Of a DNA stretch of 64,000 nucleotides, positions 21,891 through 42,938 are shown one piece after another; the stretch's first letter is position 1; each line of letters begins with the position of its first letter. The notes under the pieces are model-generated. The model was given only the letters and a program-made list of their open reading frames with translations. It searched no databases and was not told the origin of the DNA. The translations under genes were made by a program, and so were the position numbers. The stretch covers positions 1,860,001-1,924,000 of the forward strand of contig NZ_OY762229.1 of assembly GCF_963665355.1 (NCBI RefSeq), given 5' to 3'. Source of the DNA: an uncultured Desulfobacter sp. GTDB lineage: Bacteria > Desulfobacterota > Desulfobacteria > Desulfobacterales > Desulfobacteraceae.

Positions 21891-22230
21891 CGCCCTTTGA
21901 CTGGTATGTCATAGACCTTTATTTCCATTCTGACACGGGATAAAGTTGATGACCGGGCGCGGAATAAGGTCGAACGACCCTTCAGGGGTGTACCGGCCGC
22001 TGTGCGCAACTCAAAATTAGTCCTCGCGAAACGTCTTGTGAAGAAAGGCCCATCAATGCAAAGGATAACCCGACCCGCTTCGCCGAACTCAATATATTGT
22101 TGCGCTGCAAGTGGAACGGTCAGGATCTGTTTTTCAACCCGCAACCGGATGACATTCTTAATGAAATATATGAGTAATGCGAGACCAAGGGCAAAAAATG
22201 GCGGTGATATTTAGCCTTGTCCCCCTGCAT
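21812..22230 (-). pseudogene. Small membrane protein gene with probable 1-base frameshift
   Basis: An ATG at 22230 begins MQGDKAK; adding one A near 22211 would continue into ISPPFFALGLALLIYFIKNV, a transmembrane helix, and then a roughly 110-aa soluble beta-rich tail ending LRPV at 21812. Without that base the first frame stops early. As it stands only the part from a TTG at 22144 is open. Either the gene is decayed or there is a base-call error. Not recognised. Confidence 0.35.
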
Positions 22231-22643
22231 GAAGACAAAGCGAATGAAAGCCATCCGATTTTCGGTTATCAATATTCCAGGCAGAGTCATTGAACATTCT
22301 CGCAGTCTGATATTGCGTTTATCTAAACGGCATCCATCTTATGCTCTCCTTGTTGAAGCACGCAGGCGAATCGCATTGCTAAATGGAACCTGGGCTCCCT
22401 CAGGATAATCATATGAGATTTTTTTTATCAAAAAATGGAACTTTTCTACCGATTATGGGATAATTGCGCCTAAATTGTACTTAAATTAGACGAATTGTTC
22501 CGCAAGAGAGGTTAACGTTACCCAACACCTCGTTTCTCTGACATAACTAGCCGCACTCCGAGAAAAAATTTCCCGAAATTGTCCTTGGACAGGTGTTCAG
22601 AAAAATAGGCGGTGGATTTGGGGTTTTCTTAAGGGTTTGACAG
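22231..22643. other. Intergenic region before the Sia/RiPP cluster
   Basis: 413 bp, AT-rich on the right. The plus-strand frame at 22217-22408 lacks an SD and domain. This region should hold the promoter of the 22.6-37.3 kb cluster, but no pair of boxes is good enough to name. Confidence 0.4.
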
Positions 22644-22802
22644 ATGACAAAGAAAAAAATAGAGTATGAATTTAGTATTACCAACACAGATAAGGAGGTG
22701 CCCCTTAAATATGCAGAGAGCTGTATTTCTTCCAACTTGAACTCGAAGGAGGAATCCATAGTTGAGAATTCCGGAGATGAAAAAAATGATGTCTTATCAT
22801 AA
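22644..22802 (+). CDS. Possible 52-aa peptide gene at the head of the cluster
   Basis: ATG at 22644 with AAGGG 8 nt upstream opens a 52-codon frame (MTKKKIEYEFSITNT at the start, charged Ser/Asn/Glu-rich C-terminus ending DVLS). It overlaps the SiaB-like gene by 41 bp. Two AAGGAGG sequences lie inside it (22690s and 22746-22752), the second serving the SiaB start, so it may be only a leader region. It might be a small regulatory or precursor peptide; no family recognised. Confidence 0.35.
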   Translation: MTKKKIEYEFSITNTDKEVPLKYAESCISSNLNSKEESIVENSGDEKNDVLS

Positions 22803-23346
22803 ATCCGCATATGAGTTTCATGAAGAGTTGAAGGCCCAGGGAGTTTTTTTCTTTTTCAACGGCACCCTCTCCCAGAATCTGCTCAAGGATATCATCCGAA
22901 ATATCCACTGCCGCAAGGAGCTGGAGATTGCCACAAGAACCCAGCTCAATCGGATCATATCCATTGTCATCGAGCTTCTGCAGAATGTGACCTTCTACTC
23001 CTCGGAGCCTGCGAAATATTGCGACAACAAGAACTTCAGAGATATCGGTGACGGAATACTGATGATCGGCCGCAGGGATGATGCTTTTTTCATCTCCTGC
23101 GGAAACCCGGTGGAGAGGAGCAAGGTCGACATCATCCGCTCCAAGGTGGAGCGGCTCAGCAGTATGAATCGAAGTGAAATCGTTCAGTTTTATCGTGGCC
23201 AGCTCAATGAAGTCAGGGACGAGGAGGGCATGGGTGCCGGCCTGGGATTTATCGAAATCGCAAAAAAATCGAGCCGCCCCCTTAATATTACATTTGATAG
23301 AGTGGATGAAGACCGTGCCTATTTTTCCATCACAAGCTATGTATGA
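22762..23346 (+). CDS. siaB: SiaB-family protein kinase (HATPase-like)
   Basis: About 194 aa. In Pseudomonas, SiaB phosphorylates SiaC and SiaA dephosphorylates it, which controls the diguanylate cyclase SiaD (established). Here the HATPase-like features are visible: IVIELLQNVTFYSSEP as the N-box, GDGILMIGRRDDAFFISCGN, and the Gly-rich GMGAGLGFIEIAKKS. I choose the TTG at 22762 because AAGGAGG (22746-22752) is 9 nt before it; ATGs at 22777, 22786 and 22789 are alternatives. The siaC-like gene follows after 13 bp. Confidence 0.78.
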   Translation: MRIPEMKKMMSYHKSAYEFHEELKAQGVFFFFNGTLSQNLLKDIIRNIHCRKELEIATRTQLNRIISIVIELLQNVTFYSSEPAKYCDNKNFRDIGDGILMIGRRDDAFFISCGNPVERSKVDIIRSKVERLSSMNRSEIVQFYRGQLNEVRDEEGMGAGLGFIEIAKKSSRPLNITFDRVDEDRAYFSITSYV

Positions 23347-23359
23347 CGGGGAATGATAC

Positions 23360-23749
23360 ATGGATGCACCAAATATAGCAGCAACGGAAGATACGCCTCT
23401 GGTGAAATTCGATTCCGAAGATCGAAGCCTAACCATCAGAGGTAACAGCTTCCCTGAAAACACATTTGTATTCTACAAGCCGATCATCTCATGGCTGGAG
23501 GGTTATCTCGTAAGTGACCTGCCCGGGGTATTTGTCCTGAATATGGACATCGGCTATTACAACAGCAGTTCCTCGAAGGTATATATGAATATTTTCAACC
23601 TCTTGAGCAACAAGGGCACCGAGGGTTGCGCCATCGTTGTAAACTGGTACTACGATAGTGAAGACGAGGATGCCCACGAAGACGGCGAAGAGTTCCGGAT
23701 GGGAATGGAATCGATTACCTTTAATATAGTCTCAAAGGATCTCTCCTAA
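23360..23749 (+). CDS. siaC: SiaC-family regulatory phosphoprotein (DUF1987)
   Basis: 129 aa. The family core is clear: SFPENTFVFYKPIISWLEGY, VLNMDIGYYNSSSSKVYMNI and VNWYYDSEDEDAHEDGEEF. The SSSS run at residues 69-72 sits where P. aeruginosa SiaC carries the Thr that SiaB phosphorylates. Unphosphorylated SiaC is the activator of the SiaD cyclase in that system. The stop TAA is followed immediately by the ATG of the histidine kinase gene, so translation should be tightly coupled. Confidence 0.85.
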   Translation: MDAPNIAATEDTPLVKFDSEDRSLTIRGNSFPENTFVFYKPIISWLEGYLVSDLPGVFVLNMDIGYYNSSSSKVYMNIFNLLSNKGTEGCAIVVNWYYDSEDEDAHEDGEEFRMGMESITFNIVSKDLS

Positions 23750-25897
23750 ATGACGACAGCATCCCTATTCAGCTTTGAAGAGAACGTCGTCAGCCATTCC
23801 GAAATCGTTTTAGCCGATACCGGTCTCTCCTTCGAACGCCTCAGAGAGGAGTACAGCCGGCTGGCCGCTAATTTCAAACAGCTTCTCAACGAGCATAAGC
23901 GCTTGATCCGCTTGAACGACAGGCAGCAGAATCAGATGAACCGTCTCAATCACGATCTCAAGCACGCCAAGGAGGCGGCGGAGGCGGCCACAAATGCCAA
24001 GAGCGACTTTCTGGCCAACATGAGCCATGAAATCAGGACGCCCATGAACGCCGTCATAGGCCTTTGCCTCCTGATCTTAAAAACCGATCTTTCCCCCAAA
24101 CAGCATGACTATATCAACAAGATCAGCGCATCGGCCCACACCCTTCTGGGCACCATCAATGAGATCCTGGACTTCTCCAAGATCGAAGCCGGCAAACTCG
24201 ACTTCGAAGATACGGAGTTTTCCCTTGTCGACCTTTTGAAAAACCTGCCGGATCTTTTTTATTCGAAATGTTCCGAAAAAAAGATCCGGCTGAGCATCGA
24301 TATAGACAAGCAGATCCCCTGTTGTCTTGTGGGCGACCCCCTGCGGCTGCACCAGGTTCTCGTAAACCTGACTACCAATGCCGTGAAGTTCACCCTTCAG
24401 GGACATATCCATGTCCAGGCCCTGTGTGTGAAAAAGGGAAAGGATCGAATTCGTCTCAGGTTTGAGGTAAAAGACACCGGCATCGGCATGACGAAGGCGC
24501 AGCAAGAGCTGGTATTCTCACCCTTTACCCAGGCCGATTCATCCACGTCCCGCAAGTTCGGCGGTACCGGCCTGGGCCTTACGATCTGCAAACGTATCGT
24601 GGAGATGATGAAGGGCCGGATTGGGGTGTTCAGCTCCCCTGGAGAGGGCAGCACCTTCTGGTTCGAAGCCGAGTTCAGCACAGCCTGCCAAGCCCCTGCG
24701 GATCCATACGCGCTGTCGGAAAAGGCAAATTCCCTTAAGGCCGGAGGGCCGGATATCATTCCGGATTCCCCCGCCCTTGAAGGCGCCGAGGTTCTCCTGG
24801 TGGACGACAACGAAATCAATCTTCAGGTGAACAAAGAGATCATGGAATGGGGCGGAATACGGGTGACCACGGCTTCCACGGGAATGCAGGCCCTCCTCAA
24901 ATTCACCGAAACCCTGAAGGGCCCAAGGCCTTTTGAGGCCGTTTTCCTGGATATTCAGATGCCGGACATGAACGGCTATGAGTTGACCCGGAAGATCAGA
25001 AAACTTGAAATGCATGCCGGGAATAACATCGCGAAAGCCGATAACGTGCCTGTTCCCATCATCGCCCTCACATCCCATGCAACAAAAGGGTGCCGTGAAA
25101 AATGCATCCAGGCAGGGATGAACGATTATGTGACCAAGCCCGTCGAGGTATCCCTTCTGTTCAATACCCTTTTAAGATGGATTGATCCCGACACTCTGTC
25201 CCTGCCACCCGGGACCAAAGGCGCCCCCTCCCGCCCCCGGGAAGCAGCCCCTCTCCTGAAAGACAATGATTTTCCGGTTCACCTGCCCGGCCTGGATATA
25301 TCGGAAAGCCTGCCCCGTCTCAGGGGATCCACGGATCTGTACTTGAAACTTAGCACCTTGTTTCTTGAAAATTTCGGTGATTTCAAACAGGAGCTGCAGC
25401 AGGGATTTGAAAAGGAAGATATAGGAAAAATCGAGTATCGACTCCATGCCCTCAAGGGGGCTGCCGGAAACATCGGAGCCGTACACCTGTTTGCGGGAGC
25501 AGATGAGCTGGAAACGATCATCAAAGAGAAACGCAACAAGGAACTGGCGCCTGCCCTGAAATATTTCAACCTGTGTATAGACGAGGTGACGGCATCCTTA
25601 AGATTCCTCGTGGACGCCATAGGGAAAAGCGCTCCGGCCGATCACCAACCTGCTGAAGAAGAATGGAAAAAGGTGGACATCGGCGTCGTGGGCTCACTGA
25701 TCAAGGAGATCATCGAACTTCTGGAGGAAGATTTCGATGAGGTGGAAAAGCGGATCAGCAAACTCAAAACAGCCCTTGGACCCTGTGGCGAAAGCCGGGA
25801 GTATATCGTTATTCTTAAGAGCATCGACAATTTCGAGATGGATGCAGCCCTGGTCGGTCTTACAAAACTTTCTGAAAAACTGAACATCAGGCTATAG
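23750..25897 (+). CDS. Soluble hybrid histidine kinase (HisKA-HATPase-REC-Hpt)
   Basis: 715 aa with no transmembrane segment and no PAS domain. A coiled-coil N-terminus (residues 25-80) leads to the H-box [16 protein letters not shown] (His near 94), N and G boxes ([22 protein letters not shown]), a receiver [10 protein letters not shown] (about 347) with phospho-Asp in [13 protein letters not shown] (about 400), and an Hpt domain [15 protein letters not shown] (about 565). With no sensor of its own it may take input through SiaB/SiaC or the 1757-aa protein (inference). Output is likely the response-regulator cyclase 24 bp downstream. Confidence 0.88.
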
Positions 25898-25921
25898 ATA
25901 TCATGGAGCTCGAACGCCCTT

Positions 25922-27151
25922 ATGAAAACTGAAAAAATACTGATCGTGGATGATTTCAAGGAGAACCTCTTTGTCTTAAAAGAGGCCCTCAAAAGCCGGT
26001 ACAAGGTCGTTACCGCGCTCAGCGGTGAGAAAGCCCTGGCCATTGCCGGGGGCGAAAATCCGCCGTCCCTGATACTGCTGGATATCATGATGCCGGAAAT
26101 GGATGGGTATGAAGTCTGCAAAAGACTCAAGGCCTCGCCAAAGACCTGGAACATTCCGATCATATTTGTAACGGCGGTCAAGGAATCCGTTGATGAAGCC
26201 AGGGCTTTCAGCCTCGGCGCCGTCGACTATATCACCAAGCCCTTCAATCCGATCATCGTGCAGGTGAGGGTGGAAAATCACCTGAGGCTAAGAAGAAAGA
26301 GTGAACTTCTCGAACAGCTGGCAATGGTCGACGGGCTCACGGAGCTTCACAACCGCAGATTTTTCGATGATGCCCTGACCAATGAGTGGTTTCGTGCAAA
26401 AAGGGGCGGCCGCGCCCTTTCCCTCCTGTTGCTGGATATCGACCTGTTCAAACTCGTAAACGACCATTACGGACATGCCGTGGGTGACGATTGCCTTAGA
26501 AAGGTTGCCCGAACCCTCGCAGACTCCCTGTGCAGGGCCAGCGACCAACTATGCCGGTTCGGCGGCGAGGAGTTCGCGGCGATCCTGCCCGAAACGGAAA
26601 CGGAACGTGCTTTGGAAACGGCGGAAAGACTTCGAACCAGGGTCATGGCCCTTAACTATCCCCATGCATACTCTCATGTGGCGGACTGTGTTACCGTGAG
26701 TATCGGCGTGGCCACTCTGTTCCCGGAAGGAAGTAATTCAAAAGAAGACCTTATTGCCATTGCCGACGCAAGCCTGTATAAAGCAAAGGCTGCGGGGCGC
26801 AACCGAGTGATCGCTTCCCTGCCCGGCAAAGGTCAGGCCGGTACATACTTACGGACACCTGAGCGGATGCATTCGGATTGCCGCCGAATTCGTTTTAAAA
26901 ATTTTACCCCAAGGAGAGTTCAAATGCCATTTATAAACATCAAGTTACTCGAAGGCGCCCTGACGGATGAGGAAAAGGAAGAGGTCATCAGGCGCGTTTC
27001 CGAAGTCGTTGCGGAGGTCAGAGCTCGGCCCCTTCCCATGGAAAAGGTCTTGCCCCATACGACCTGCATTATCGAAGAAGTTCCCCTGGGCCAGTGGGGA
27101 ATCGGCGGCAAGGTGGTTCCCAAATCGGCCTTGTCGAAAAAAACCGAATAA
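25922..27151 (+). CDS. Response regulator diguanylate cyclase, in-frame with a C-terminal tautomerase
   Basis: 409-aa frame. Receiver at residues 1-125 (ILIVDD; phospho-Asp54 in LLDIMMPEMDGY; Lys in YITKPF). The GGDEF domain at about 140-300 has intact GGEEF (214-218) and an RASD inhibitory site five residues before it, so it should make c-di-GMP and be product-inhibited. It fills the SiaD place in the Sia circuit. Past the cyclase the frame runs without a stop through a 27-residue stretch that looks like translated intergenic sequence into a complete 4-oxalocrotonate-tautomerase-type domain. That domain also has its own SD and ATG (see nested feature). Confidence 0.85.
   Translation: MKTEKILIVDDFKENLFVLKEALKSRYKVVTALSGEKALAIAGGENPPSLILLDIMMPEMDGYEVCKRLKASPKTWNIPIIFVTAVKESVDEARAFSLGAVDYITKPFNPIIVQVRVENHLRLRRKSELLEQLAMVDGLTELHNRRFFDDALTNEWFRAKRGGRALSLLLLDIDLFKLVNDHYGHAVGDDCLRKVARTLADSLCRASDQLCRFGGEEFAAILPETETERALETAERLRTRVMALNYPHAYSHVADCVTVSIGVATLFPEGSNSKEDLIAIADASLYKAKAAGRNRVIASLPGKGQAGTYLRTPERMHSDCRRIRFKNFTPRRVQMPFINIKLLEGALTDEEKEEVIRRVSEVVAEVRARPLPMEKVLPHTTCIIEEVPLGQWGIGGKVVPKSALSKKTE
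26924..27151 (+). CDS. 4-oxalocrotonate tautomerase-family protein nested in the cyclase frame
   Basis: 75 aa starting MPFINIKLLEG, so that removal of Met would free the catalytic Pro1 of the family. WGIGGKVV near the end is the other hallmark. AAGGAGAG lies 8 nt before the ATG at 26924, which supports independent initiation. The frame is the same as the upstream cyclase (codon 335), and no stop separates them. Compared with xylH-type 4-OT, Arg11 is Ala and the Arg39 position is not Arg, so activity on classical substrates is doubtful. It precedes a candidate RiPP precursor gene. Confidence 0.7.
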   Translation: MPFINIKLLEGALTDEEKEEVIRRVSEVVAEVRARPLPMEKVLPHTTCIIEEVPLGQWGIGGKVVPKSALSKKTE

Positions 27152-27242
27152 AACATGAGTATTGATCCGAACCATAGCTCATAACTGATGGGAAAGAGTT
27201 GATTACCGATGAACATGTACTAACAACTGAGAGGAGATTATT

Positions 27243-27728
27243 ATGAGCGCAGAAGAGATCACGGTAAAAAAATCACATAAGATTGATCAGAAAATAAGAG
27301 ATATCTGCATCAACTATATGGAGCTTATGTTGACCTGCGGCAGGGATGAAAAAAACCGCGACAGCTTTTTCGAGAATCCACGTCCCTATTTGAACGGTAT
27401 CGGTATGGTGATACCGGAAAAGGTTTCCATCCATCTTAAGGTCGGGCAGAGTTTTCCTGCGCTCTTCCTCAAGACGGCGGAGGGAAAGATTGCGATCTAT
27501 GAGGGCAAACTATGCCTTAAGGTTGTCGAGGAGATGAGGGACCATACGAAACATATGGAAAAGGTCGTATTGAAAGAGCAGGGCGAAATTGATGTCAACG
27601 TCCACGCATCATTGAATGACCCCGACGTACAGGGCGTTGTCGTGATGCCGTTTTTTGATCTCTATACCGATATCCTCGGAGAGGTTAAATTCCAGGATGG
27701 TGCGGAGATTATCCTGACAAGCTGTTAG
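27243..27728 (+). CDS. Hypothetical protein with nitrile-hydratase-leader-like segment; candidate RiPP precursor
   Basis: 161 aa, AGGAG 8 nt before the ATG. Residues about 38-66 (DSFFENPRPYLNGIG, then VIPEKVSIHLKV) resemble the NHLP leader pattern FxxxPxxxLxxxGxxIPxxVxVxV that feeds RiPP enzymes. The protein ends in EIILTSC, three residues (Thr, Ser, Cys) that a cyclodehydratase could in principle act on. It lacks a GG or GA cleavage site and is longer than most NHLP precursors, so it could instead be a partner protein. Its position between the tautomerase and the kinase/phosphatase, in a cluster with rSAM and YcaO genes, supports a link to the RiPP pathway. Confidence 0.5.
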   Translation: MSAEEITVKKSHKIDQKIRDICINYMELMLTCGRDEKNRDSFFENPRPYLNGIGMVIPEKVSIHLKVGQSFPALFLKTAEGKIAIYEGKLCLKVVEEMRDHTKHMEKVVLKEQGEIDVNVHASLNDPDVQGVVVMPFFDLYTDILGEVKFQDGAEIILTSC

Positions 27729-27873
27729 TTCAGGTTATCACGACAAGGTCGTTAAAGTGAGTCATAAAGTCTCTAACCGGGGATCATTGAACTATCAAAA
27801 CTCTCCTTTTAGGGGCTTTTTCTTTTAGTTATTTTTAGGTGTAAATCCTCTTGCGGGAAGATAAGGGCCACAT

Positions 27874-30800
27874 ATGAATATTGCCGATTATAAGATAATG
27901 CATACGCTGTATCACGATCAGAAGTATATCGTCTACCGCGCCCGACATAAAGAAACCGCTTCGTCCCGCATCTTGAAAGTACTGAAGAAAAAATCAGCAT
28001 TTCACTTTAAATACCTGCACGGCCTTCAGAACGAATATGAGCTGCTTTGCCGGATTACCTCCGACTATGTGGTCAAACCAATTGATTTTATTACAACCGG
28101 CGATTTCAGTATCCTTGTACTGGAAGATATCGACGGGCACACCCTGAAGGAGGAGATTCAAAGCGCCCCCCTCTCCCTTGCCAGGTTCCAGGTAATTTCA
28201 GGGCAACTCATGGAGGCCATTTCAGCCGTTCACCAGCAGGATATCATTCACCGGGATATCAATCCCGATAATATCATATGGAATCCAGTCAGTGCCAAAA
28301 TTAACCTTATCGATTTTGATATTGCCACAAAGTTCAACCAAAAAATTTTATACAACGGTAATCCCGATTCCCTGGAAGGCACATTGTCCTATATTTCACC
28401 GGAGCAGACCGGAAGGGTAAACCGCCGTGTGGACCATCGGTCGGACCTCTATTCCCTTGGAATCACCTTTTATGAAATGATCACCGGCGTTCCTGTTTTC
28501 GAATATGAAAATCCCCTTGAAATCGTTTATGCCCACCTGGCCCGCGCCCCCTTGCCGCCCCATGAATTAAACACAACGCTACCGAACACCCTTTCTTGCA
28601 TCATACTTAAATTGATAGAAAAAAATCCAAGGAAACGCTATCAATCCGTTCAGGGCCTGCAATATGATCTTTTCAGGGCGTTCGAAAACGTCGAGGCAGC
28701 GTTCACCCTCGGAGAAAAGGATTACACGGGGAAACTGCAGGTTACGGAGACGTTGTACGGCCGGATTGATGAGCGGTCATCCCTCTTGGCAGCATACCAC
28801 AGGCTTGGGCAAAAAAAGAGGGAGGTGGTTCTGGTTGCCGGTCTTCCCGGAACCGGGAAAACCTCCCTTGTAAGCGAACTGCATAAACCCATAACCCGGG
28901 ATCAGGGATATTTCCTCAGCGGGAAATTCGATCAGCTGCAGCGATCGGTTCCCTACGCGGCTTTGGGCCTGGCGCTCGGCCAGTTCTGCGATCTGCTCTT
29001 GAGCGAGCCCCAGGACGTGCTGGATCAATGGAAGGCGCGTATTCTAAATGCCGTGAATCCGCTGGGAAAGTTGTTGACGGATATTGTTCCCAACCTCATG
29101 GAGATCATCGGCAAACAACCCGACATCCCTGAAATCGGCGGCGACCAGGCGATGGGGCGTTTTAACCATGTGTTTTCCTCTTTTTTAAAAGCCGTTGCAA
29201 CCGAAGAGAAACCTGTCGTCCTGTTTATAGACGACCTGCAATGGGCCGACCTCGAATCCCTCTCCGTGTTGAGTCTGATCAGTGAAGACATTGAAAATTC
29301 ATATCTCCTCGTTGTCGGCGCATACAGGGATAACGAAATCACCACCGACCACCCCTTCCTGCCCTTCATCCAAAGGCTTGCTGAGAACGATGTTCAAGTC
29401 ACCACCATTAATGTCGGCAATCTCACGCCAGCCGATGTTAAAGAATGGCTTGCCCATACATTGCGGTCCGATACGGATCCTGCGGTCACCGAAGATCTGG
29501 CTGACCTCATCTTTCAAAAAACCGGGGGCAATGCGTTCTTTTTCAATCAGTTTTTGAAAAATCTCCACGCAAGGGGGCTCCTGGATTTTGATTTTAAACA
29601 TCGAAGGTGGTCATGGGATACAGCCGAAATAAGGGCTTTGAACATAACAGACAATGTTGTGAACCTACTGGTGCAGAAAATAGAACAGCTGTCAGATGAA
29701 ATACAGGGCATTTTAAGGCTGGCCGCATGTATCGGCCAGGCCTTCGAACTTTCTACCCTGTCCGTTATTTCAGGTCAATCAACAGAAGCACTGACCCTGC
29801 TGCTTGAAGCCGCCTTAATTCAAGAACTGATCCAGGCGGAGGGAGAAAACCGGTACAAATTTATTCATGATCGGGTTCAACAAGCCGTTTACAGCATGAT
29901 AGATCTTTCGACCCGACAGAAACTGCATCTTTCCATCGGCCGCCTGCTGTTAAATTCCATGGCGCTGCCGGATCGATTCCATGAGATAAAAGAGGTCGGA
30001 AATGTTCTTTTCAATGTCGTCAACCACCTCAATATGGGCATGGACCGGATCTGCGATAATGATGAGAAACTGATCCTTGTAAGATTGAACCTCTCTGCAA
30101 GTAAAAAGGCCAGGCTCTCTGCAGCCTTCAATATCAGTACGGATTATATCAGGACGGCCCTTGCGCTTCTACCTGAAAACCACTGGCAAAATCATTATGA
30201 TCTGACCCGGGAAATATATGATCAAGCCATTCAATGTTATTTCCTGTCCCGGGATACCGGGCAGCTTGAAGTCCATATCGACACCGTTTTATCATCGGCA
30301 CTTTCAGTATCCCACCGCTGCGTTGCCCATGAATACCGCATTATGAACCTTATCGCGCAAAATCAGCATCTTTTAGCTGCGGAAAAGATCCTGGAGATAT
30401 TCACATCCCTGGGGGTTTCCATTCCAACCGAACCGGAACCTTCCCATATCGGCAGGGAAATCAACAGTACGCAAACCCTGATAGAACGTTATGGTATGGA
30501 TAATATCATCAATCTGCCGCCGATGGACGACCCGGAAACAAGGCTGATCCTGCGCCTTTATTATACGGGCGCAACGGCCTTCATGTTTTCCAAGTACCAG
30601 AACATACTGCCGCTTTTGACCTCAAGGATGACGGCGTTGATCCTTGAGAACGGACTGTGTCCGGAAACGCCTTATGTTCTTTGCCTCTACGGCACCGTAC
30701 GAATCGTTGCGGGTGATATTTCCGGAGCGTATAAGATTGGAAAGATTGCCCGTGAGCTGATCGAAAACCGGTTATGCGACGATGCCATGCGCGTGAGATC

Positions 30801-33147
30801 CATCACCCCCTTTTACCTTTATATAGCAGGAAACCGGCAGCATTACAGGGAGGTATCGCAAAGCCTGATCGACCTTCACCCCTTTGCGCTCAATGCCGGC
30901 GACTATGTTTACGGCGGCTATATCATCGCCCACTACATGGCGTTTCTGGCGCGCAGCAGCACCCCGCTCTCCGTCTGGTATGAAAAACTCATCTTCATAC
31001 GCCCGCATCTCTCCCTTCAAAAGGAGAGAATTATGCTTGCGCTCTTTGCCTCCGATATACACCTGAATGCCGAACTGACCGGCCAGGTGCTCCCTTCGGA
31101 GATCATTGAACTGGATTTTGAAAAGATATCCAGCGGTCTGCCCCCCGATGCCCTGAGGCTATGCAGGATGTGCGAGTATCTGATGAGGGTAAAATCCGCA
31201 GTCATCTTTGAACGCAACGACCGACTGTCTTCCGATGTCGCGATTTTCGAAGAAAACTGGAGCCGGATCCGGGCACGCCTGACATACATCACCAGCGATT
31301 ACTACCTCTATTTCACCCTGGCCTATCTGCATCTTCACACCGTAACAGAGGATGAAAAAGAGAAAGCAGCGTTCCTTACAAAGGCTGCGGCAGGCTTGAA
31401 AGTGATGAAAAGCTGGGCAATAATCGGCTCTACCAATTTCTCCCATAAATACCATCTGCTGCAAGCTGAAATGCACCGCATACAGGGAAATTTTTGCCAG
31501 GCGGGGGCGCATTACGACAGGGCAATCGAAAAAGCAATTGAAAACGCGTATATAAACGAAGCGGCCATTGCAAACGAACTTGCGGCCAGATTCTACATGC
31601 ACAACGGGCGAGACAGGATCGCCTCCCTGTATTTCAGCGAGGCCAGGGCATGTTATCAGCAATGGGGAGCCGCTGCAAAGGTGTCCCACCTCGATACCAA
31701 TTATCCCAAGTATACGGGCCATTCATCATACCCGGGTAAGGCGAACATGAACTTCACGACGGGAACCATGGCCAAAACGAGCGCAGGCCACCTGGATATC
31801 GCCACCATTTTAAAGGCATCCCAGACCCTTTCCAGAGAGGTACAGTTGCAGCAGCTTTTGGACAGGATGCTCAGAATCCTGATGGAAAACGCAGGGGCCC
31901 GGACAGTTGTCCTGATTCGAAATCAGGACGGTCGTCTGCTCATCCAGGGAGAAGGGCGCCTGGAGACCGGAACTCAGGTGCTCCAGGCACTGCCCGTTGA
32001 CGATTCCCGGAACATCCCCCTTGCCGTGATCCATTTCGTGGCCCGTACCCGGGAGACCCTGGTATTTGAAAACCTCTCCCGGAGTCCCGAATACGGTTCA
32101 GATGAGTATATCACCCGACATCAGCCGAAATCCGCCGTCTGTTTTCCCATCATCAAGCAAACGGAACTTACCGGTATGGTTTACCTTGAAAACAACCTGA
32201 TCGAAGGGGCCTTCACGCCGTCACGCCTGGAGGTGCTCAGCATGCTTTCCACCCAGATTGCCATCTCCATGGAGAATGCAGAACTTTATGAAGACCTGGA
32301 GGAAAAGGTCCGGCAGCGAACCCACGACCTTCAGAGGGTGCACGAAGAACTCGAGGAGAGCCACAGGGAACTTGCTAAAAACCACAAGAAGATCACCGAC
32401 AGCGTCACACAGGCCGTGCGCATCCAGGACGCGGCTCTGCCCGACGATGGGACCATTGCGGCGCTTCTGCCGAACCATTTTATTTTTTTCCGCCCCTGTG
32501 CAACGGTCAGCGGAGATTTCTACTGGATTCGGAAAATCGAAGACAAGATCATCACGGCGGTTGCAGACTGTACGGGACACGGCGTCCCCGGTGCCCTGGT
32601 CAGCATGCTGGGCATCGCTTTTCTCAATGATATCGTGCCGAGGATGGCTGAACAGAAAAGGCTCTTTCCCGACCAGATCCTGGGAGAGCTCAGGACAAAG
32701 GTAAAAACCGCTTTCAAGCAGCACGGTGATCCCGCCGAGCAGCAGGAGGGAATGGATATGGGGCTTTGCACCATTGATCTCAAAGCCCGCAGGATCCGGT
32801 TCTCAGGAGCCCATCATCCCCTGTTGATGATCAGGGACGAAAAGCTCCTCGAGTTCAAGGGCGACAGGATGCCCATTGCCGTTCACCACAGGGAGAAGCC
32901 TTTCACGGCCCATGATATTTCATTGGAAGAAGGCGATATGCTCTATCTGTTTTCAGACGGTTTCATCGATCAGATCGGCGAGAAATCCGGAAAAAAGTTC
33001 ATGAAGGGACATTTTAAAAAATTGCTCCTGGATATCTCCGGGACCCCCCTGCATCAACAGAAAGAAACATTATACAACCGGTTTAAAGAGTGGAAGGGCA
33101 ACTTTCCGCAGGTCGATGACATCCTGATTCTTGGATTCCGGCTTTGA
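27874..33147 (+). CDS. Giant Ser/Thr kinase - AAA ATPase - TPR - GAF - SpoIIE phosphatase
   Basis: 1757 aa. Kinase domain at about residues 10-270 with IIHRDINPDN (catalytic loop) and LIDFDIAT, a DFD in place of DFG, then GTLSYISPEQTGR. A predicted ATPase of the AAA_16 type follows, with Walker A GLPGTGKTS near 323 and LFIDDLQWAD near 450; then a long helical TPR-like region to about 1290. GAF spans 1314-1469, a coiled coil follows, and a PP2C-like SpoIIE domain occupies 1535-1757 with its metal-binding acids (SGDFYW, ADCTGHGVPGA, LFSDGFID, VDDILIL). The C-terminal domain is the kind found in SiaA, so it is the natural phosphatase for the SiaC-like protein, opposing SiaB (inference). No TM segment seen. 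Confidence 0.85.
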   Translation: MNIADYKIMHTLYHDQKYIVYRARHKETASSRILKVLKKKSAFHFKYLHGLQNEYELLCRITSDYVVKPIDFITTGDFSILVLEDIDGHTLKEEIQSAPLSLARFQVISGQLMEAISAVHQQDIIHRDINPDNIIWNPVSAKINLIDFDIATKFNQKILYNGNPDSLEGTLSYISPEQTGRVNRRVDHRSDLYSLGITFYEMITGVPVFEYENPLEIVYAHLARAPLPPHELNTTLPNTLSCIILKLIEKNPRKRYQSVQGLQYDLFRAFENVEAAFTLGEKDYTGKLQVTETLYGRIDERSSLLAAYHRLGQKKREVVLVAGLPGTGKTSLVSELHKPITRDQGYFLSGKFDQLQRSVPYAALGLALGQFCDLLLSEPQDVLDQWKARILNAVNPLGKLLTDIVPNLMEIIGKQPDIPEIGGDQAMGRFNHVFSSFLKAVATEEKPVVLFIDDLQWADLESLSVLSLISEDIENSYLLVVGAYRDNEITTDHPFLPFIQRLAENDVQVTTINVGNLTPADVKEWLAHTLRSDTDPAVTEDLADLIFQKTGGNAFFFNQFLKNLHARGLLDFDFKHRRWSWDTAEIRALNITDNVVNLLVQKIEQLSDEIQGILRLAACIGQAFELSTLSVISGQSTEALTLLLEAALIQELIQAEGENRYKFIHDRVQQAVYSMIDLSTRQKLHLSIGRLLLNSMALPDRFHEIKEVGNVLFNVVNHLNMGMDRICDNDEKLILVRLNLSASKKARLSAAFNISTDYIRTALALLPENHWQNHYDLTREIYDQAIQCYFLSRDTGQLEVHIDTVLSSALSVSHRCVAHEYRIMNLIAQNQHLLAAEKILEIFTSLGVSIPTEPEPSHIGREINSTQTLIERYGMDNIINLPPMDDPETRLILRLYYTGATAFMFSKYQNILPLLTSRMTALILENGLCPETPYVLCLYGTVRIVAGDISGAYKIGKIARELIENRLCDDAMRVRSITPFYLYIAGNRQHYREVSQSLIDLHPFALNAGDYVYGGYIIAHYMAFLARSSTPLSVWYEKLIFIRPHLSLQKERIMLALFASDIHLNAELTGQVLPSEIIELDFEKISSGLPPDALRLCRMCEYLMRVKSAVIFERNDRLSSDVAIFEENWSRIRARLTYITSDYYLYFTLAYLHLHTVTEDEKEKAAFLTKAAAGLKVMKSWAIIGSTNFSHKYHLLQAEMHRIQGNFCQAGAHYDRAIEKAIENAYINEAAIANELAARFYMHNGRDRIASLYFSEARACYQQWGAAAKVSHLDTNYPKYTGHSSYPGKANMNFTTGTMAKTSAGHLDIATILKASQTLSREVQLQQLLDRMLRILMENAGARTVVLIRNQDGRLLIQGEGRLETGTQVLQALPVDDSRNIPLAVIHFVARTRETLVFENLSRSPEYGSDEYITRHQPKSAVCFPIIKQTELTGMVYLENNLIEGAFTPSRLEVLSMLSTQIAISMENAELYEDLEEKVRQRTHDLQRVHEELEESHRELAKNHKKITDSVTQAVRIQDAALPDDGTIAALLPNHFIFFRPCATVSGDFYWIRKIEDKIITAVADCTGHGVPGALVSMLGIAFLNDIVPRMAEQKRLFPDQILGELRTKVKTAFKQHGDPAEQQEGMDMGLCTIDLKARRIRFSGAHHPLLMIRDEKLLEFKGDRMPIAVHHREKPFTAHDISLEEGDMLYLFSDGFIDQIGEKSGKKFMKGHFKKLLLDISGTPLHQQKETLYNRFKEWKGNFPQVDDILILGFRL

Positions 33148-33214
33148 ACGGATTGGCCGGCATCCCATGCCCAGCCATATTTAACCATCATGAGTGAATG
33201 GCGAGTTTTATGCC

Positions 33215-35050
33215 ATGACCCAAAACGAAGATAAAAATATAGCCAGCAGAATCAATTCGGCCCTGTCCGGCGGTGACGTCCTTTTTATCGTTCCGCCGTT
33301 TTCCAGATCCTGTCTCGGCGCCATGCTGGACCCCCATCTCCTTCAATCCATCTCCATCGACAGCGGGCTTGGGGCCGAAGTCCTCTATTTGAACGTTCTG
33401 CTCGCCTCCATGATCGGCATTGATCGATTTGAAAAAACCGGCAACGCACCCAGATCCTGGATGGTAGGGGAACGGCTGTTTGCCCGGGCCGCTCATGCTC
33501 TACCGCAGCTGGGCGTTCCCCAGGAGGAGCTCTTTGCCCTGGGGGAAAACAAAAAGAAAAGACCTTCTCCGGCTCCCCACCCGGTAGATCCTCAATTCGA
33601 TCCACTGCCCTGGCTTGACCTGGAAGAGACCTGCTTCTCATTCTCGGACCAGGTGGCACCTGTTGTAGCGGCAAGGGGATACAAGATCATCTGGCTCAAT
33701 ATCGGCTGGGAACAGATCAACTGCGCCCTTGCCCTTATCGACAGGATAAAGTCAGCCGCACCCGACACCCTCTTCATGATAGGGGGGCTGAACTGCGAAG
33801 CTGCCATGGCAAGGGGCATTGCGGCGATGAACAGTAATGTGGATTATATATTCCAAGGAGAAATCGAGGCGGCATATGCACAGTTCCTAAAAGGATATAC
33901 CCAAGGAAAGCGCCCTGACCATCGCATCCTCAGGGGAGGCCCCGTAAAGGACATGGACCTGTTACCCCTGCCCGACTATGCCGCCTATTTTCACCAGGCA
34001 GACCTTTTTTTCGAAGACAAGCGCCCGGAAAAACTGGCCCTGGCCTATGAAACCAGCAGGGGATGCTGGAAAGGGCAGAAGCAGAGATGTGCGTTCTGCG
34101 GCCTGAGTTGCGATGAACGGATCCAATACCGCTTCAAGAGCCCTGCAAAGGTTCGTTCCGAACTCGCTGTGATCAGCAAAAAATATAAAAATATCATCGT
34201 GTTCATGACGGATCACACCCCGCCCTCCTCCTATTACCGGGAATTGTTCCCCACGCTTAGGCTTCCGGACGGTTTTTCCATGCGCTATCAGCTGGTGGCC
34301 GCACTGACCCTCAAGGATCTGATTAACCTTAAAAAAGCGTCTGTCAACCGCATACAGCCCGGTATAGAGGCATTGACCACCCCGCTCTTGAACGCCATCC
34401 ACAAGGGGGTAAAGGCCCACCAGAATCTGGCTCTGCTTCGAAATGCCATGTCCACGAATATCTTTGTCTACTGGTATCTGCTCTGGGGACTGCCGGGAGA
34501 CCGGCCCGAGGATTATGAGAAGACCATTGAGCTCATTCCCCTGCTGCGGCATCTGCAACCCCCGGAACTCCTGGCCCACGTACGTTTTGAAAAATTCGGG
34601 CTCTATGTGGAGCGCCCGGAGGATTACGGAATCACGAACCTGCAACCGGAAAAGGCCTATGCAGTGATCTTTCCTGAAAATGCCGACCGGGAGAAACTGG
34701 CATTCCGTTATACCGGTGATTACCCCTGCGGCTCCCATGATCGGCCCGACATAATCCAAAGGCTTGAACAGGAGGTTCGTACCTGGAAGGATTCCTGGAG
34801 AGCGGTCAGTCTGGTCATGGTCCTGTTCTGGGATCAATATGTGATCCATGACACCCGGTTCGCCAGCCAATCCCATAAAACATATTCCATGGACCGAGAC
34901 CAGGCCAAAGAGGTGATGCGCCATTGCCGGTATACGGGTTCCCGCCAGCAGGAGTGGGCCCTGGAACATAAACTGGCCATTATTGCCGACGCCCATTACG
35001 TGCCCCTGGTAACCGCCTCTCCCCAACTGCTGCTGGAACTGGAAGCTTAG
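33215..35050 (+). CDS. B12-binding radical SAM RiPP maturase (RiPP maturation radical SAM protein 1 type)
   Basis: About 611 aa. The N-terminal 230 residues form a cobalamin-binding-like domain (VLFIVPPFS-type start, then IIWLNIGWEQINCALALI and LFMIGGLNCEAAMARGIA). The radical SAM core has RGCWKGQKQRCAFCGL: the Cx7CxxC spacing typical of this RiPP maturase group, near residues 283-294. Such enzymes act on NHLP/Nif11-leader peptides. I prefer the ATG at 33215; a GTG at 33194 gives seven more residues. It lies 30 bp before the TOMM cyclodehydratase gene. Confidence 0.82.
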   Translation: MTQNEDKNIASRINSALSGGDVLFIVPPFSRSCLGAMLDPHLLQSISIDSGLGAEVLYLNVLLASMIGIDRFEKTGNAPRSWMVGERLFARAAHALPQLGVPQEELFALGENKKKRPSPAPHPVDPQFDPLPWLDLEETCFSFSDQVAPVVAARGYKIIWLNIGWEQINCALALIDRIKSAAPDTLFMIGGLNCEAAMARGIAAMNSNVDYIFQGEIEAAYAQFLKGYTQGKRPDHRILRGGPVKDMDLLPLPDYAAYFHQADLFFEDKRPEKLALAYETSRGCWKGQKQRCAFCGLSCDERIQYRFKSPAKVRSELAVISKKYKNIIVFMTDHTPPSSYYRELFPTLRLPDGFSMRYQLVAALTLKDLINLKKASVNRIQPGIEALTTPLLNAIHKGVKAHQNLALLRNAMSTNIFVYWYLLWGLPGDRPEDYEKTIELIPLLRHLQPPELLAHVRFEKFGLYVERPEDYGITNLQPEKAYAVIFPENADREKLAFRYTGDYPCGSHDRPDIIQRLEQEVRTWKDSWRAVSLVMVLFWDQYVIHDTRFASQSHKTYSMDRDQAKEVMRHCRYTGSRQQEWALEHKLAIIADAHYVPLVTASPQLLLELEA

Positions 35051-35079
35051 AATCAAAAAAAGGCTGGGAAAACGAAATT

Positions 35080-37341
35080 ATGATAAAAAATCCGAGACTC
35101 ACATACTGTTACCATGCGGAATTTATAGGCGACGACAATGTACTCCTGTCCAGTGAAAAGGACAATGTACTGCTGACCGAAAGGTCCTGCTGCCTTGTGC
35201 TCTCCGCCATAACCGAAAACGATCTCTCCCTCGATGACCTGCTTGCCCGTCTCGACGAGGAGATGCCCTACACGGAAACGCTGTATACGGTGGTCAAACT
35301 TTCCCAGGCAGGTTACATCACCGAGGCGGAATCCACCCTTTCTCCCGAGGAACTGGCGTTCTGGAGTGGCCTTGGCATGGACCTAGGAAGGCTGGCTGCG
35401 TTACTTACGGACAAAACCGTATCCATCGTTTCCACGGATACGGACAGCCCTGCCGAGCTGATCCATGCCCTTTCACAGGCCGGACTCAAGGTTCAGGAGA
35501 ACGCAGATCTTACGATCGTCATTACCGGCGACTACGAAGATCCCATGATCCGGCAGATCAATCTCGATGCCCTGAGGAGCGAGAAACCGTGGATGCTGCT
35601 CAAGATAAACGGCATCGAGCCGTGGCTGGGCCCGTTCTTTATCCCGGGCAAAACCGCCTGCTGGGAATGCCTGGCCAACCGGCTGAGCTATAACCGCCAG
35701 ATCAACACCTTCTTCAAGGCCCACACCGGGATGGGCCAAAACCTGCGCATCCCTTCCGCCGGAACTCCTCTGTCCCGGCAAACGGCTGCGGGTCTTGCGG
35801 TTCAGGAGATCGTAAAATGGCTCTATTTCGGTACAAACGACCGGCTGGAAGGAACGATCATCACCCTTTCGAACATGCCCCTTGATATGCAGTCCCACCT
35901 CCTGGTCCGGCGCCCCCAGTGTCCGGCCTGCGGAAAAAAGGACTACAGGATCGCCCCAAGACCGGTTACATTAAAAAAGAACCGGGCCTGTTCCGCCAGC
36001 CTTGCAGGCGGTTACCGGGAGGCCTCCCCGGAGGCAACATTCAAAAAATACCGTCATCATATCAGCACCATCACCGGCGTCGTGCAGAAGCTCGCTCCCT
36101 ACCACGCCATAGCAAACGCCCCCATGCACAACTTTTCCTCGGGCCACAACATGGCATTCAGGAGCAAATCCATGCACTGGCTCAACAACCATGTGAGAAG
36201 CGGTTGCGGCGGCAAGGGAGCCAGCAGATCCCAGGCAAAGGCAGGGGCCCTGTGTGAAGCCATCGAACGTTACAGCCTGACCTGGCACGGAGACGAACCC
36301 CGCATAAAGAGCAGCCTTACAGACCTGGGGGAACAGGGAATACACCCCAATGACTGCATGAACTTCAGCCAAAAGCAGTTTCAGGACCGGGAGGCCCTCA
36401 ACCGTGAATGCTCCAGGTTTTACGCATTGATTCCCGTTCCCTTCGCCGAAACAGAGCAGATGCACTGGACACCGGTCTGGTCCATGGGCCTCGGGAAATT
36501 CCGCTACCTGCCCTCCTGTTTCTGTTATGCCCAGTATCCGGTGGAAGATGAACAAAAGGCATACGCATACCCGGACAGCAACGGATGCGCCGCCGGAAAC
36601 TCTGTTGCGGAGGCGGCCCTGCAGGGGTTTCTGGAGCTGGTGGAAAGGGACAGCGTGGCCCTGTGGTGGTACAATCGCCTGGAAAAACCTTCGGTGGACC
36701 TTACAAGTTTCAATCAACCCTATTTCCAAACACTTTCAGCATATTACAGATCCATCCAGCGCAGTCTTACGGTCCTTGACCTCACAAGCGACCTGGGCAT
36801 ACCAGCCTTTGGGGCGATCTCACACCGGCTGAATAACGAGCGGGAGGATATTGTCTTCGGGTTCGGCGCCCATGTGGATGCGACCATCGCCGTTGAGCGC
36901 GCCCTGGTGGAACTTAACCAAATCCTTCCCATCGTGCATCCGCCAAAGGAAAAGGGGGGTTCCCCCCAATATCTTACCGGGGACAAAAACTTTCTCTCCT
37001 GGCTCGATTCCGCCACCATGGAAAACCAGCCCTACCTCTCCCCGGGAAGGTCGTTGCCCCCTAAAACACTTTCGGACTACAAGAAGCTCTGTGAACCCGG
37101 CATTGAGGAGAGCCTGAACTTCTGCATCCTTCGGGCGGCTGAAAAGGGCATGGACACCCTGATTCTCGATATGACAAGGCCGGACGTCGGCCTCAACGTG
37201 GTCAAGGTCATGGTTCCGGGGCTCCGCCATTTCTGGAGACGCCTGGCGCCAGGAAGACTCTACGATGCTCCGGTGGGCCCCGGCCTTCTATATCGCCCCC
37301 TTGAAGAGCACGAACTGAACCCGGTGGGACTGTTTATCTGA
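35080..37341 (+). CDS. TOMM cyclodehydratase: RRE / E1-like / YcaO fusion
   Basis: 753 aa enzyme expected to form azoline rings from Cys/Ser/Thr in a precursor peptide. Residues 1-85 form a PqqD-like winged-helix RRE (NVLLTERSCCLVLSAI...GYIT) that would hold a leader peptide. Residues about 95-300 form an E1/ThiF-like domain with a four-Cys zinc site, C194/C197 (CWEC) and C281/C284 (CPAC). The YcaO domain follows, with ATP-binding motifs GKGASRSQAKAGALCEAIER and NGCAAGNSVAEAALQGFLEL-VERD. The extreme C-terminus is LNPVGLFI, not the common PxPxP. No separate dehydrogenase gene is seen, so products may stay as azolines. Confidence 0.85.
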   Translation: MIKNPRLTYCYHAEFIGDDNVLLSSEKDNVLLTERSCCLVLSAITENDLSLDDLLARLDEEMPYTETLYTVVKLSQAGYITEAESTLSPEELAFWSGLGMDLGRLAALLTDKTVSIVSTDTDSPAELIHALSQAGLKVQENADLTIVITGDYEDPMIRQINLDALRSEKPWMLLKINGIEPWLGPFFIPGKTACWECLANRLSYNRQINTFFKAHTGMGQNLRIPSAGTPLSRQTAAGLAVQEIVKWLYFGTNDRLEGTIITLSNMPLDMQSHLLVRRPQCPACGKKDYRIAPRPVTLKKNRACSASLAGGYREASPEATFKKYRHHISTITGVVQKLAPYHAIANAPMHNFSSGHNMAFRSKSMHWLNNHVRSGCGGKGASRSQAKAGALCEAIERYSLTWHGDEPRIKSSLTDLGEQGIHPNDCMNFSQKQFQDREALNRECSRFYALIPVPFAETEQMHWTPVWSMGLGKFRYLPSCFCYAQYPVEDEQKAYAYPDSNGCAAGNSVAEAALQGFLELVERDSVALWWYNRLEKPSVDLTSFNQPYFQTLSAYYRSIQRSLTVLDLTSDLGIPAFGAISHRLNNEREDIVFGFGAHVDATIAVERALVELNQILPIVHPPKEKGGSPQYLTGDKNFLSWLDSATMENQPYLSPGRSLPPKTLSDYKKLCEPGIEESLNFCILRAAEKGMDTLILDMTRPDVGLNVVKVMVPGLRHFWRRLAPGRLYDAPVGPGLLYRPLEEHELNPVGLFI

Positions 37342-37412
37342 TCACCACAAAAATCATTTGAGTGTAACCTTTTTCAATAAAGCGGTAATCAGTCATTTGC
37401 TTGTCCTCTAAT

Positions 37413-40664: not shown

Positions 40665-40669
40665 GATTT

Positions 40670-41104
40670 TTAATCCGCAGATTGCGCGGATTCCCGCAGA
40701 TTAAAAACCAGTCGTTTATTTTGCAAACTCTTAGAACCAAAATTTATAAGTAAGGCTCGGTTCAGATTTGAGGCTTTTAGGTAGTTGATCACCTGCGCTT
40801 CTTCAATTCCTGATAATCTCTGTAATGCCTTAAGCTCAACAATAACCGAATCAAAACAGATAAAATCAGCCTGGTAATAACTGTTGAGTTGTTCGCTACG
40901 ATAGAAGACAGGGAGCTTAACCTCTCTTGCATAAGGAATACTCAGATATTGAAATTCTTTTTCCAAAGCATCCTGATAAACCGCTTCCAGAAAACCACAA
41001 CCCAGCTCACGATGAACGGTCATGGCGGCGCCAATGATGGCGTAAGTTTCCTTATCCCTTATCCCATCTGCGTCTTTCTGCGTAATCTGCGGATTATTCA
41101 GCAT
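40670..41104 (-). CDS. GxxExxY family protein inserted between sbcD and sbcC
   Basis: 144 aa. Family motif GCGFLEAVYQDAL (GxxExxY), then an IPYxREVxLPVxYR block, ADFICFDSVIVELKAL with the Asp and Glu-x-Lys of a PD-(D/E)XK nuclease-like fold, and INYLKASNLNRALLINFGS. Its start overlaps the sbcD stop by 11 bp and its stop lies 5 bp before the sbcC start. Both ends of the coding sequence are made of 10-bp-period repeats: residues 4-14 (NPQITQKDADG) come from the element at 41066-41095 and the last residues (NLRESAQSAD) from that at 40672-40702. Function of the family is unknown; a nuclease role is inferred from fold. Confidence 0.85.
   Translation of the reverse strand: MLNNPQITQKDADGIRDKETYAIIGAAMTVHRELGCGFLEAVYQDALEKEFQYLSIPYAREVKLPVFYRSEQLNSYYQADFICFDSVIVELKALQRLSGIEEAQVINYLKASNLNRALLINFGSKSLQNKRLVFNLRESAQSAD
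40672..40702 (+). repeat. 10-bp-period element, left end of the GxxExxY unit
   Basis: Three consecutive units related to CCGCAGATT. Its first 12 bases (AATCCGCAGATT, 40672-40683) are an exact inverted copy of 41084-41095. It contains the end of the GxxExxY coding sequence. Confidence 0.75.
41066..41095 (-). repeat. 10-bp-period element, right end of the GxxExxY unit
   Basis: On the minus strand: AATCCGCAGATTACGCAGAA then AGACGCAGAT, three 10-bp units. It faces the left element, and covers both the sbcD stop codon and the first codons of the GxxExxY gene. Confidence 0.75.
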
Positions 41105-42386: not shown

Positions 42387-42429
42387 TGAGCCCCTGGTTT
42401 ATAAGTGGTGGATTGTGTTTTTAAGATGA

Positions 42430-42882: not shown

Positions 42883-42900
42883 ACTATACCTTCGATTTTG

Positions 42901-42930
42901 ACCACAGAATACACGGAAGACACAGGAAAG
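42901..42930 (+). repeat. Type-2 10-bp-period element
   Basis: ACCACAGAAT, ACACGGAAGA, CACAGGAAAG: three 10-bp units. A similar element on the opposite strand lies at 44251-44280. The two face each other around the DUF1016 gene. Confidence 0.6.
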
Positions 42931-42938
42931 AGGTTTGG

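Follow-up and report, generated by a model that had tools for sequence, protein, structure and literature searches.

We analysed a 64,000-nucleotide stretch of DNA from an uncultured Desulfobacter sp. (assembly GCF_963665355.1, contig NZ_OY762229.1, positions 1,860,001 to 1,924,000), which is referred to as the window; the genome comprises 5.64 Mb in 3 contigs. Within it lies a cassette of about 15 kb, spanning 22.4/22.6 to 37.38 kb, with eight or nine genes all located on the plus strand. Here a SiaB/SiaC phospho-switch and a cyclase for cyclic di-GMP (c-di-GMP) stand in one row with modifying enzymes of ribosomally synthesized and post-translationally modified peptides (RiPPs). The best explanation of the whole is in our view a mobile cassette in which a system of the TOMM-kinase type (TOMM, thiazole/oxazole-modified microcin) is coupled to the Sia switch, a reading that we hold at about even confidence. 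The nearest named relative at the locus is Desulfobacter vibrioformis, whose YcaO protein is 96% identical. A preliminary description made from the letters of the window had named the genes in this order and on this strand, and curated family models confirmed all of them. The following features were assigned (scores in bits, cut-offs in brackets):

22400–22761, plus strand: left border region with a promoter-like TTGACA-17-TAGAGT at 22637–22665; common with genome G004 from 22400 and with genome G003 from 22622
22762–23346, plus strand: SiaB-family protein kinase, 194 aa; NF038262 148.6 (85), Pfam DUF6272 120.8, PDB 6kko chain A E 1.7e-16
23360–23749, plus strand: SiaC-type phosphoprotein, 129 aa; Pfam SiaC 126.2 (24.5), alignment to 6kko/6k4f
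23750–25897, plus strand: hybrid histidine kinase HisKA-HATPase-REC-Hpt, 715 aa; domain models, homologue beside siaC in genome G011
25922–27151, plus strand: REC-GGDEF diguanylate cyclase, its frame running on into a tautomerase; domain models, nearest solved structure PleD
26924–27151, plus strand: tautomerase (MPFINIKL...), probably a gene of its own; ATG preceded at five bases by AAGGAGAG, own frame in G003
27243–27728, plus strand: 161-aa NHLP-like protein, candidate substrate, C-terminus ...GAEIILTSC; TIGR03793 19.0 (50.9), below cut-off
27874–33147, plus strand: 1757-aa protein, Ser/Thr kinase, AAA_16, a long stretch without Pfam match, GAF and SiaA-type SpoIIE/PP2C; domain models, 6k4e E 5.2e-45
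33194–35050, plus strand: B12-type radical SAM C-methyltransferase of RiPP type; TIGR03975 384.1 (281.85)
35080–37341, plus strand: RRE/E1-like and YcaO cyclodehydratase, 753 aa; TIGR03882 135.6 and TIGR03604 256.1, both above cut-off, LynD 4v1t
37381/37382, no strand: right cassette junction; the sequence starting at 37382 occurs without the cassette at five places in other genomes of the genus

Along the eight frames the intergenic gaps measure 13, 0, 24, 91, 145, 46 and 29 bp. The first gene had been placed at 22644, where a 52-aa open reading frame (ORF) begins; since a stop shortens the G003 copy, this ORF is doubtful and probably not a gene, and siaB starts at 22762. The cyclase and tautomerase had been described as one protein, and they do share a frame in the window. 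The tautomerase is nevertheless probably a gene of its own, because its ATG at 26924 follows the ribosome-binding-like AAGGAGAG at five bases, Pro is the second residue, and in G003 tautomerase and cyclase lie in different frames. Pro as residue 1 is a feature used by tautomerases of the family found here. Domain and family model scans of the eight frames scored no exporter, protease or dehydrogenase, in agreement with the earlier statement that transporter and protease genes are absent, and the ORFs in the gaps scanned for a hidden precursor were short ones, the majority lacking a ribosome-binding-like site. Over the entire scan, promoter matches numbered 15 versus 12.0 ± 3.5 expected, no more than chance. 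Terminator-like sites on both strands numbered 29 versus 17.0 ± 3.6 expected, and a split transcript is possible because a weak one lies at 27803, between the gene for the NHLP-like protein and the giant gene.

Among the 19 genomes of the genus YcaO was found in three, the window's own (G000), G003 and G004, and SiaC in the same three and G011. All three YcaO carriers possess the complete block. G003 and G004, two further Desulfobacter species, have the eight genes in identical order, with proteins 88–96% identical to those of the window. The DNA of the block is 95–97% identical, matching from window position 22622 in G003 and from 22400 in G004 and ending at 37380/37381; the right end of the three copies agrees within 1 bp and the fetched flanks are unmatched. 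The sites are unrelated: the window copy adjoins an SbcC-like gene, the G003 copy lies between a glucokinase and a TauE gene, and the G004 copy stands amid cobalamin genes, flanked by cbiG and a corrin methylase gene. Genes flanking the G004 copy are 78–85% identical in the window's genome. G015, which of the genomes matches G004 best around these cobalamin genes (86%), has an empty site, with 133 bp where G004 has about 15.9 kb. Window DNA beyond 37382 matches five places (G005, G003:C21, G006, G015 and G016) with the same neighboring DNA in each. The G015 sequence matching from 37382 on is the start of a DUF6880 gene, of which the window keeps five codons (37382–37396) before it is cut. In a weaker comparison, between G003 and the window's genome, SbcC is 91% and the block 97% identical.

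Given 78–85% identity of the flanking genes versus 95–97% of the block, and given the empty site, the block has almost certainly been transferred and kept as one unit, as far as sequence comparison can tell. The earlier proposal that Sia switching is joined to heterocycle and radical chemistry as one unit is thus borne out by the same block at three sites. An accidental linkage of neighboring genes is ruled out by the three unrelated sites, and vertical inheritance is unlikely in view of the identities of block and G004-flanking genes. No transposase or integrase was found among the eight frames, no 9-bp direct or inverted repeat was shared between 22201–22760 and 37201–37500, and the cassette DNA had no match in the plasmid collection. 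We also noticed that the G004 copy (L025, L026) is surrounded by genes of cobalamin biosynthesis, although one of the cassette's own products is a radical SAM enzyme of the B12 type. Beside the window copy lies a variable, defence-like neighborhood (37413–46007), where genes resembling SbcC and SbcD are accompanied by a PDDEXK_3 gene, a type III methyltransferase and a PDC-S02/YhcG nuclease.

On the Sia side, SiaB and SiaC match the SiaB-SiaC entry 6kko with E 1.7e-16 and 1.4e-15, respectively. SiaC Ser69 (NSSSS) aligns with the residue that SiaB phosphorylates in P. aeruginosa SiaC, Thr68 (LNTSS) (PMC8457831, PMC7647112). The proteins reach the SiaB/SiaC subfamily level (NF038262, Pfam SiaC) and fall below the equivalog models (NF038264 89.6 versus 225, NF038265 88.9 versus 150). 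The giant protein terminates in a PP2C part that matches the SiaA phosphatase 6k4e (E 5.2e-45) and keeps the motifs GDF, DCTGHG, DGF and DDI, which we take to hold the SiaA active-site residues given in PMC7647112; the whole-protein SiaA equivalog NF038263 is not reached (205 versus 700). The cyclase scores 158 versus 290 bits on the SiaD model NF038266, over residues 121–296 only, with a receiver in front. Its match to 7e6g_A begins at chain residue 90, past most of the SiaD stalk; PleD is nearest among solved structures and outside GGDEF the protein is not SiaD-like. It is more likely driven by the adjoining hybrid kinase than by SiaC. Of the complete SiaABCD set that had been suggested for the locus, SiaB, SiaC and a SiaA-type phosphatase domain thus stand, whereas the cyclase is a PleD-nearest REC-GGDEF protein without the SiaD stalk.

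On the RiPP side, LynD (4v1t) is the nearest solved enzyme to YcaO (residues 10–749, 586 bits). With TIGR03882, TIGR03604 and LynD, the protein combines an RRE/E1-like part with a YcaO of the azoline-forming kind, as used to define TOMM/azol(in)e systems, and the radical SAM enzyme exceeds the cut-off of the RiPP methyltransferase family TIGR03975. A second YcaO of the window's genome (C2:1070910) is just 25% identical over the YcaO part. The NHLP-like label of the 161-aa protein is backed by its match to TIGR03793 and weakened by the score, 19.0 bits against a cut-off of 50.9; an accepted TIGR03795 precursor scores a similar 18.9, and TIGR03795 itself gave no listed match for the 161-aa protein at a maximum E of 10. 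The protein ends in -ILTSC in three species, and a single position varies in its last 48 residues. NHLP cores have been described as hypervariable (PMC2887384, PMC4603692). We consider the 161-aa protein the probable substrate of the modifying enzymes.

We next compared the two halves with their relatives elsewhere. SiaC occurs in 40 of 291 genomes of the order (38 over cut-off). Twenty SiaC loci from 16 genomes were hand-picked from the matches, longer contigs being favored: SiaB is present in 19 of the 20, and YcaO, the radical SAM enzyme and the NHLP-like protein gave no match there (E 1e-3, 10–20 kb fetched). Together with L030 these make up 21 Sia loci. In G011, G528 and G540 SiaC occurs with a related giant kinase and no adjacent YcaO, and G011 lacks YcaO genome-wide at E 1e-20. 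Its locus (L030 629–10252), from the same genus, shows SiaC, a hybrid kinase and a giant kinase/phosphatase followed by a patatin phospholipase, with no RiPP genes. YcaO relatives (E 1e-40) were found in 5 of the 291 genomes, two cassette carriers and G527, G579 and G667, the latter three not among the SiaC-bearing genomes of the order. G579 and G667 have the BMA_0021/0022 plan of a kinase (TIGR03903 1269 bits in G579), two NHLP-type genes and YcaO. These BMA_0021/0022-type TOMM systems in Desulfobacterota lie at L130 4221–11478 and L132 1725–7676, and their second NHLP ends in YLFTCC as in Burkholderiales; four TIGR03795-like proteins (L130, L132, L144, L149) share this end. In G035, of the same family, a Nif11 precursor (TIGR03798 43.1 bits, cut-off 32.3; C-terminus LRSCTPQ), YcaO (36%) and a radical SAM enzyme (26%) stand in a row (L027 660–5370), with no Sia genes and no kinase of the cassette kind in the fetched 20 kb. 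A search for co-occurrence of sia, YcaO and radical SAM genes, proposed as a check, therefore succeeded in all three YcaO genomes of the genus and failed in the loci examined outside it: YcaO was found in 0 of the other 21 Sia loci, and SiaB or SiaC in 0 of 30 cyanobacterial YcaO loci. A SiaC search of 8 cyanobacterial genomes gave no match, though the controls in that search matched nowhere either.

YcaO (E 1e-60) is present in 17 of 291 cyanobacterial genomes. The 30 loci examined are 8 found first plus 22 fetched ones, the 22 covering 23 of 24 match rows; the remaining row coincides with L009. Of the 30 loci, 18 encode a relative of the giant kinase, compared with none of 20 control stretches (20 kb each, from four of the same genomes), with a Fisher p of 8e-6 if the loci are independent; some genomes contribute several loci, and some loci end at contig ends. 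The kinase-AAA-GAF-SpoIIE order of the window was seen in two of three cyanobacterial kinases scanned (L007, L124). On the models of known large kinases the giant protein scores 147.7 bits for TIGR03903 (cut-off 705.75; the L130 yardstick reaches 1269) and 85.9 bits for LanL, confined to the kinase domain (residues 6–267). Proteins of about 200–400 aa near the cyanobacterial YcaO genes matched no NCBIfam model above cut-off (7 scanned). A profile of these seven matches 18 ORFs, and the last three residues are all Ser/Thr/Cys in 15 of them (two such residues in 2, one in 1), versus 5 of 356 background ORFs (mechanical ORFs of at least 100 aa), three of these five being themselves NHLP-like. The 18 include the 7 profile seeds, and their common C-terminus is therefore partly common descent. 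L009 13475–14524, L010 13591–14805, L113 12191–13279 and others have a C-terminus of [IL]P[LTV] plus two to three Ser/Thr/Cys residues, and are candidate YcaO substrates.

From the protein families present we propose the following course of events. The RRE-YcaO protein would bind the 161-aa protein at its folded NHLP-like part and convert Cys161, perhaps also Thr159/Ser160, to azoline(s), while the B12 radical SAM enzyme would C-methylate another residue. The modified protein would be neither cut nor exported and would be retained as an intracellular signalling protein. Retention is suggested by the block without exporter, protease or dehydrogenase, by the NHLP-Burk species without the usual exporters and by the conserved C-terminus; the cyanobacterial loci were not part of a systematic search for exporters. 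The modified protein would then dock on the giant kinase-AAA-GAF-phosphatase and shift its PP2C output; PP2C would remove the phosphate put on SiaC by SiaB, and free SiaC would bind its target. The hybrid histidine kinase would drive the REC-GGDEF cyclase, so that c-di-GMP would be set in parallel. We infer the direction from modified protein to switch; the opposite direction, from switch to peptide, is no better supported. That the cassette belongs to the TOMM-kinase kind is likely, and would be more so if similar YcaO enzymes did not occur in other kinds of cluster. That the 161-aa protein stays inside and gates the switch is a tentative assignment, held at somewhat less than even confidence. 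The most specific form of the proposal, an azoline C-terminus (with a radical C-methyl group) of a retained protein as intracellular signal, read by a giant kinase-AAA with an output swapped between lineages, is speculative and rather unlikely to hold in full.

Several results weigh against this proposal. Among 395 genomes of the phylum the 161-aa protein matched only itself and one further sequence (2e-5), which is stop-broken and lies over the end of an unrelated ORF; no relative was found in plasmids or viral contigs, and none beyond the three species. It shows no similarity to the cyanobacterial candidates (hhalign probability 0.2), and the C-terminal residues in common may therefore be chance. 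Its AlphaFold model is unusable (mean pLDDT 38), and the L(X)4L motif 16 residues before its end is found in 14% of shuffles. The radical SAM enzyme has no match in any of the 30 cyanobacterial loci. Eight of 21 YcaO-bearing plasmid records were viewed, two of them unannotated, and four (Thalassospira, Methylovirgula, Bradyrhizobium and Streptomyces) have other partners, namely LanM and P450, SagB dehydrogenase and histidine kinase, with no such kinase annotated. The related kinase is absent from 12 of the 30 cyanobacterial loci and, by the same criterion, from all five other Desulfobacterota YcaO loci, two of which have a TOMM kinase/cyclase-like kind. It is present in 3 of the 21 Sia loci, without YcaO, and may therefore belong to the Sia side alone. 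In a tree of 16 of 19 kinases, three more distant TOMM-type kinases being left out, the cassette protein sits on a long branch apart from the Sia-only and cyanobacterial rows; the tree is uninformative about its origin. Finally, Sia and YcaO are associated through a single unit that spread recently, and their association therefore counts as one evolutionary event.

Other explanations account for parts of these observations. The Sia/kinase half might control an ordinary secreted RiPP, cut and exported by enzymes encoded elsewhere and acting on neighbors or the cell surface. The Nif11 precursor, YcaO and radical SAM row in a genome of the same family (L027) would fit such a product, as would the peptidase-exporters adjoining NHLP precursors elsewhere (PMC2887384) and the conventional RiPP-like clusters around related plasmid YcaO enzymes; yet the eight frames include no peptidase-exporter or dehydrogenase, and a C-terminus varying at one of its last 48 positions in three species is unlike the hypervariable NHLP cores. 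We consider a secreted product unlikely. It is improbable that the Sia-c-di-GMP and RiPP genes are two independent modules that travel together without functional link: their halves are interleaved, the gene for the NHLP-like protein following the cyclase and preceding the giant kinase; in cyanobacteria the kinase family has a link to YcaO of its own; and the full set is kept in all three species. Such independence is what one would read from Sia with the giant kinase and no YcaO in G011, G528 and G540, from YcaO with radical SAM and no Sia in G035, and from the lack of both halves together in any locus examined outside the genus.

The mobility of the cassette also raises the question of an anti-phage function, in which the giant kinase-AAA would sense infection and the modified protein or the Sia output would act as effector or as its guard. 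Consistent with this, the block is discrete and mobile, and its neighbors in the window include a type III methyltransferase, a PDC-S02-type nuclease and SbcCD-like genes; the last gene of the paralogous Sia-kinase locus L030 encodes a patatin phospholipase with a PADLOC effector score of 89 bits, and the kinase domain scores on the PD-T4-6 and Mad6 models. These kinase scores cover the generic kinase domain and were the only ones among six proteins scanned (PADLOC, E 1e-10; hybrid kinase and cyclase left out), and the five genes scanned next to the G003 and G004 copies serve metabolism or transport, which makes a defence role decidedly improbable. A further alternative assigns the giant kinase to maturation: its kinase domain would phosphorylate the C-terminal Ser/Thr of the 161-aa protein, as in class III/IV lanthipeptide synthetases. 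The terminal T-S-C and the LanL score of 85.9 bits speak for it, but that score covers the kinase domain only and no lanthipeptide lyase/cyclase domain was scored; we regard it as highly improbable.

If the most specific form of the proposal, with the modified C-terminus as an intracellular signal, were correct, the lineages would differ in output: Burkholderiales and some Desulfobacterota would use a kinase/cyclase fusion, cyanobacteria GAF-SpoIIE or GAF-AAA_35, and Desulfobacter the SiaC switch with c-di-GMP. The Ser/Thr/Cys tip on unrelated larger proteins would then define a cross-phylum class of signalling by modified proteins rather than by exported peptides. Systems of a large kinase with YcaO were noticed in 2010 (PMC2887384), and the cassette adds an output known biochemically from Pseudomonas (SiaB/SiaC) together with a c-di-GMP enzyme. 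Because this output is known, the role of the modified precursor becomes testable with existing assays, and three natural insertions and an empty site permit comparison of strains with and without the cassette. Elsewhere in the window, positions 55538–61612 encode a hybrid histidine kinase of 2024 aa in which five stretches match an extracellular solute-binding domain.

Among known systems the closest in plan is NHLP-Burk, or BMA_0021/0022 (TIGR03795, TIGR03903). Haft et al. 2010 (PMC2887384) describe its precursors as pairs in which one member ends in Cys or Cys-Cys; a large Ser/Thr kinase and a fused cyclodehydratase-docking protein are encoded nearby, and the species lack close homologues of the NHLP exporters. 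NHLP precursors elsewhere adjoin peptidase-exporters. A Paraburkholderia sp. PGU19 plasmid locus (L144) carries an FHA protein, a TOMM kinase/cyclase, two BMA_0021 precursors and YcaO. Common to these systems and the cassette are the fused RRE-YcaO protein, the large N-terminal Ser/Thr kinase with AAA, the NHLP-type C-terminal Cys and the lack of an identified exporter. In the cassette, however, the kinase, which does not belong to TIGR03903, has GAF and a phosphatase domain of the SiaA type, a single 161-aa protein outside TIGR03795 takes the place of the pair, and the B12 radical SAM and Sia/c-di-GMP genes are extra. A large Ser/Thr kinase near RRE-YcaO and an exporter-free block are present; since the defining models TIGR03795 and TIGR03903 do not match, the cassette is not filed as a member and the likeness is one of plan only. 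The initial statement that no similar system had been described holds for the joining with Sia, which was not seen elsewhere, and not for the combination of kinase, RRE-YcaO and an NHLP with C-terminal Cys, which is the NHLP-Burk plan (PMC2887384).

The cyanobacterial loci (among L004–L011, L109–L128, L133 and L134) share with the cassette a YcaO that is 35–42% identical, mostly over full length, and labelled 'TOMM precursor leader peptide-binding protein' in NCBI records, as well as the giant kinase with AAA in 18 of 30. They differ by an amidohydrolase beside YcaO (annotated in L148, by frame likeness in several), by precursors of about 200–400 aa unlike the 161-aa protein, and by the lack of SiaB/SiaC and of a radical SAM match. 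With SiaABCD of P. aeruginosa (PMC8457831, PMC7647112) the cassette has in common SiaB, SiaC with its phosphosite and the SiaA-type PP2C motifs; in the cassette the phosphatase is fused to kinase/AAA/GAF, the cyclase has a receiver where SiaD has its SiaC-binding stalk, and the RiPP enzymes are extra. RRE-YcaO enzymes have been reported to bind folded NHLPs (MprC/MprE7, PMC12455567), and MprC/MprE7 and LynD resemble the cassette in that an RRE-YcaO would act on a structured NHLP. MprE leaders are 81 aa long with the core after them, and two to six rings are installed (PMC12455567), whereas the candidate core of the cassette consists of three residues ending a 161-aa protein. In the literature searched, by title and abstract and with few subscription journals covered, Sia with RiPP or Desulfobacter with YcaO is not described, and mostly at the same level no function was found for a YcaO-linked large kinase or its product. 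The coupling of the RRE-YcaO/kinase plan with a hybrid kinase, a c-di-GMP cyclase and SiaB/SiaC was not seen elsewhere.

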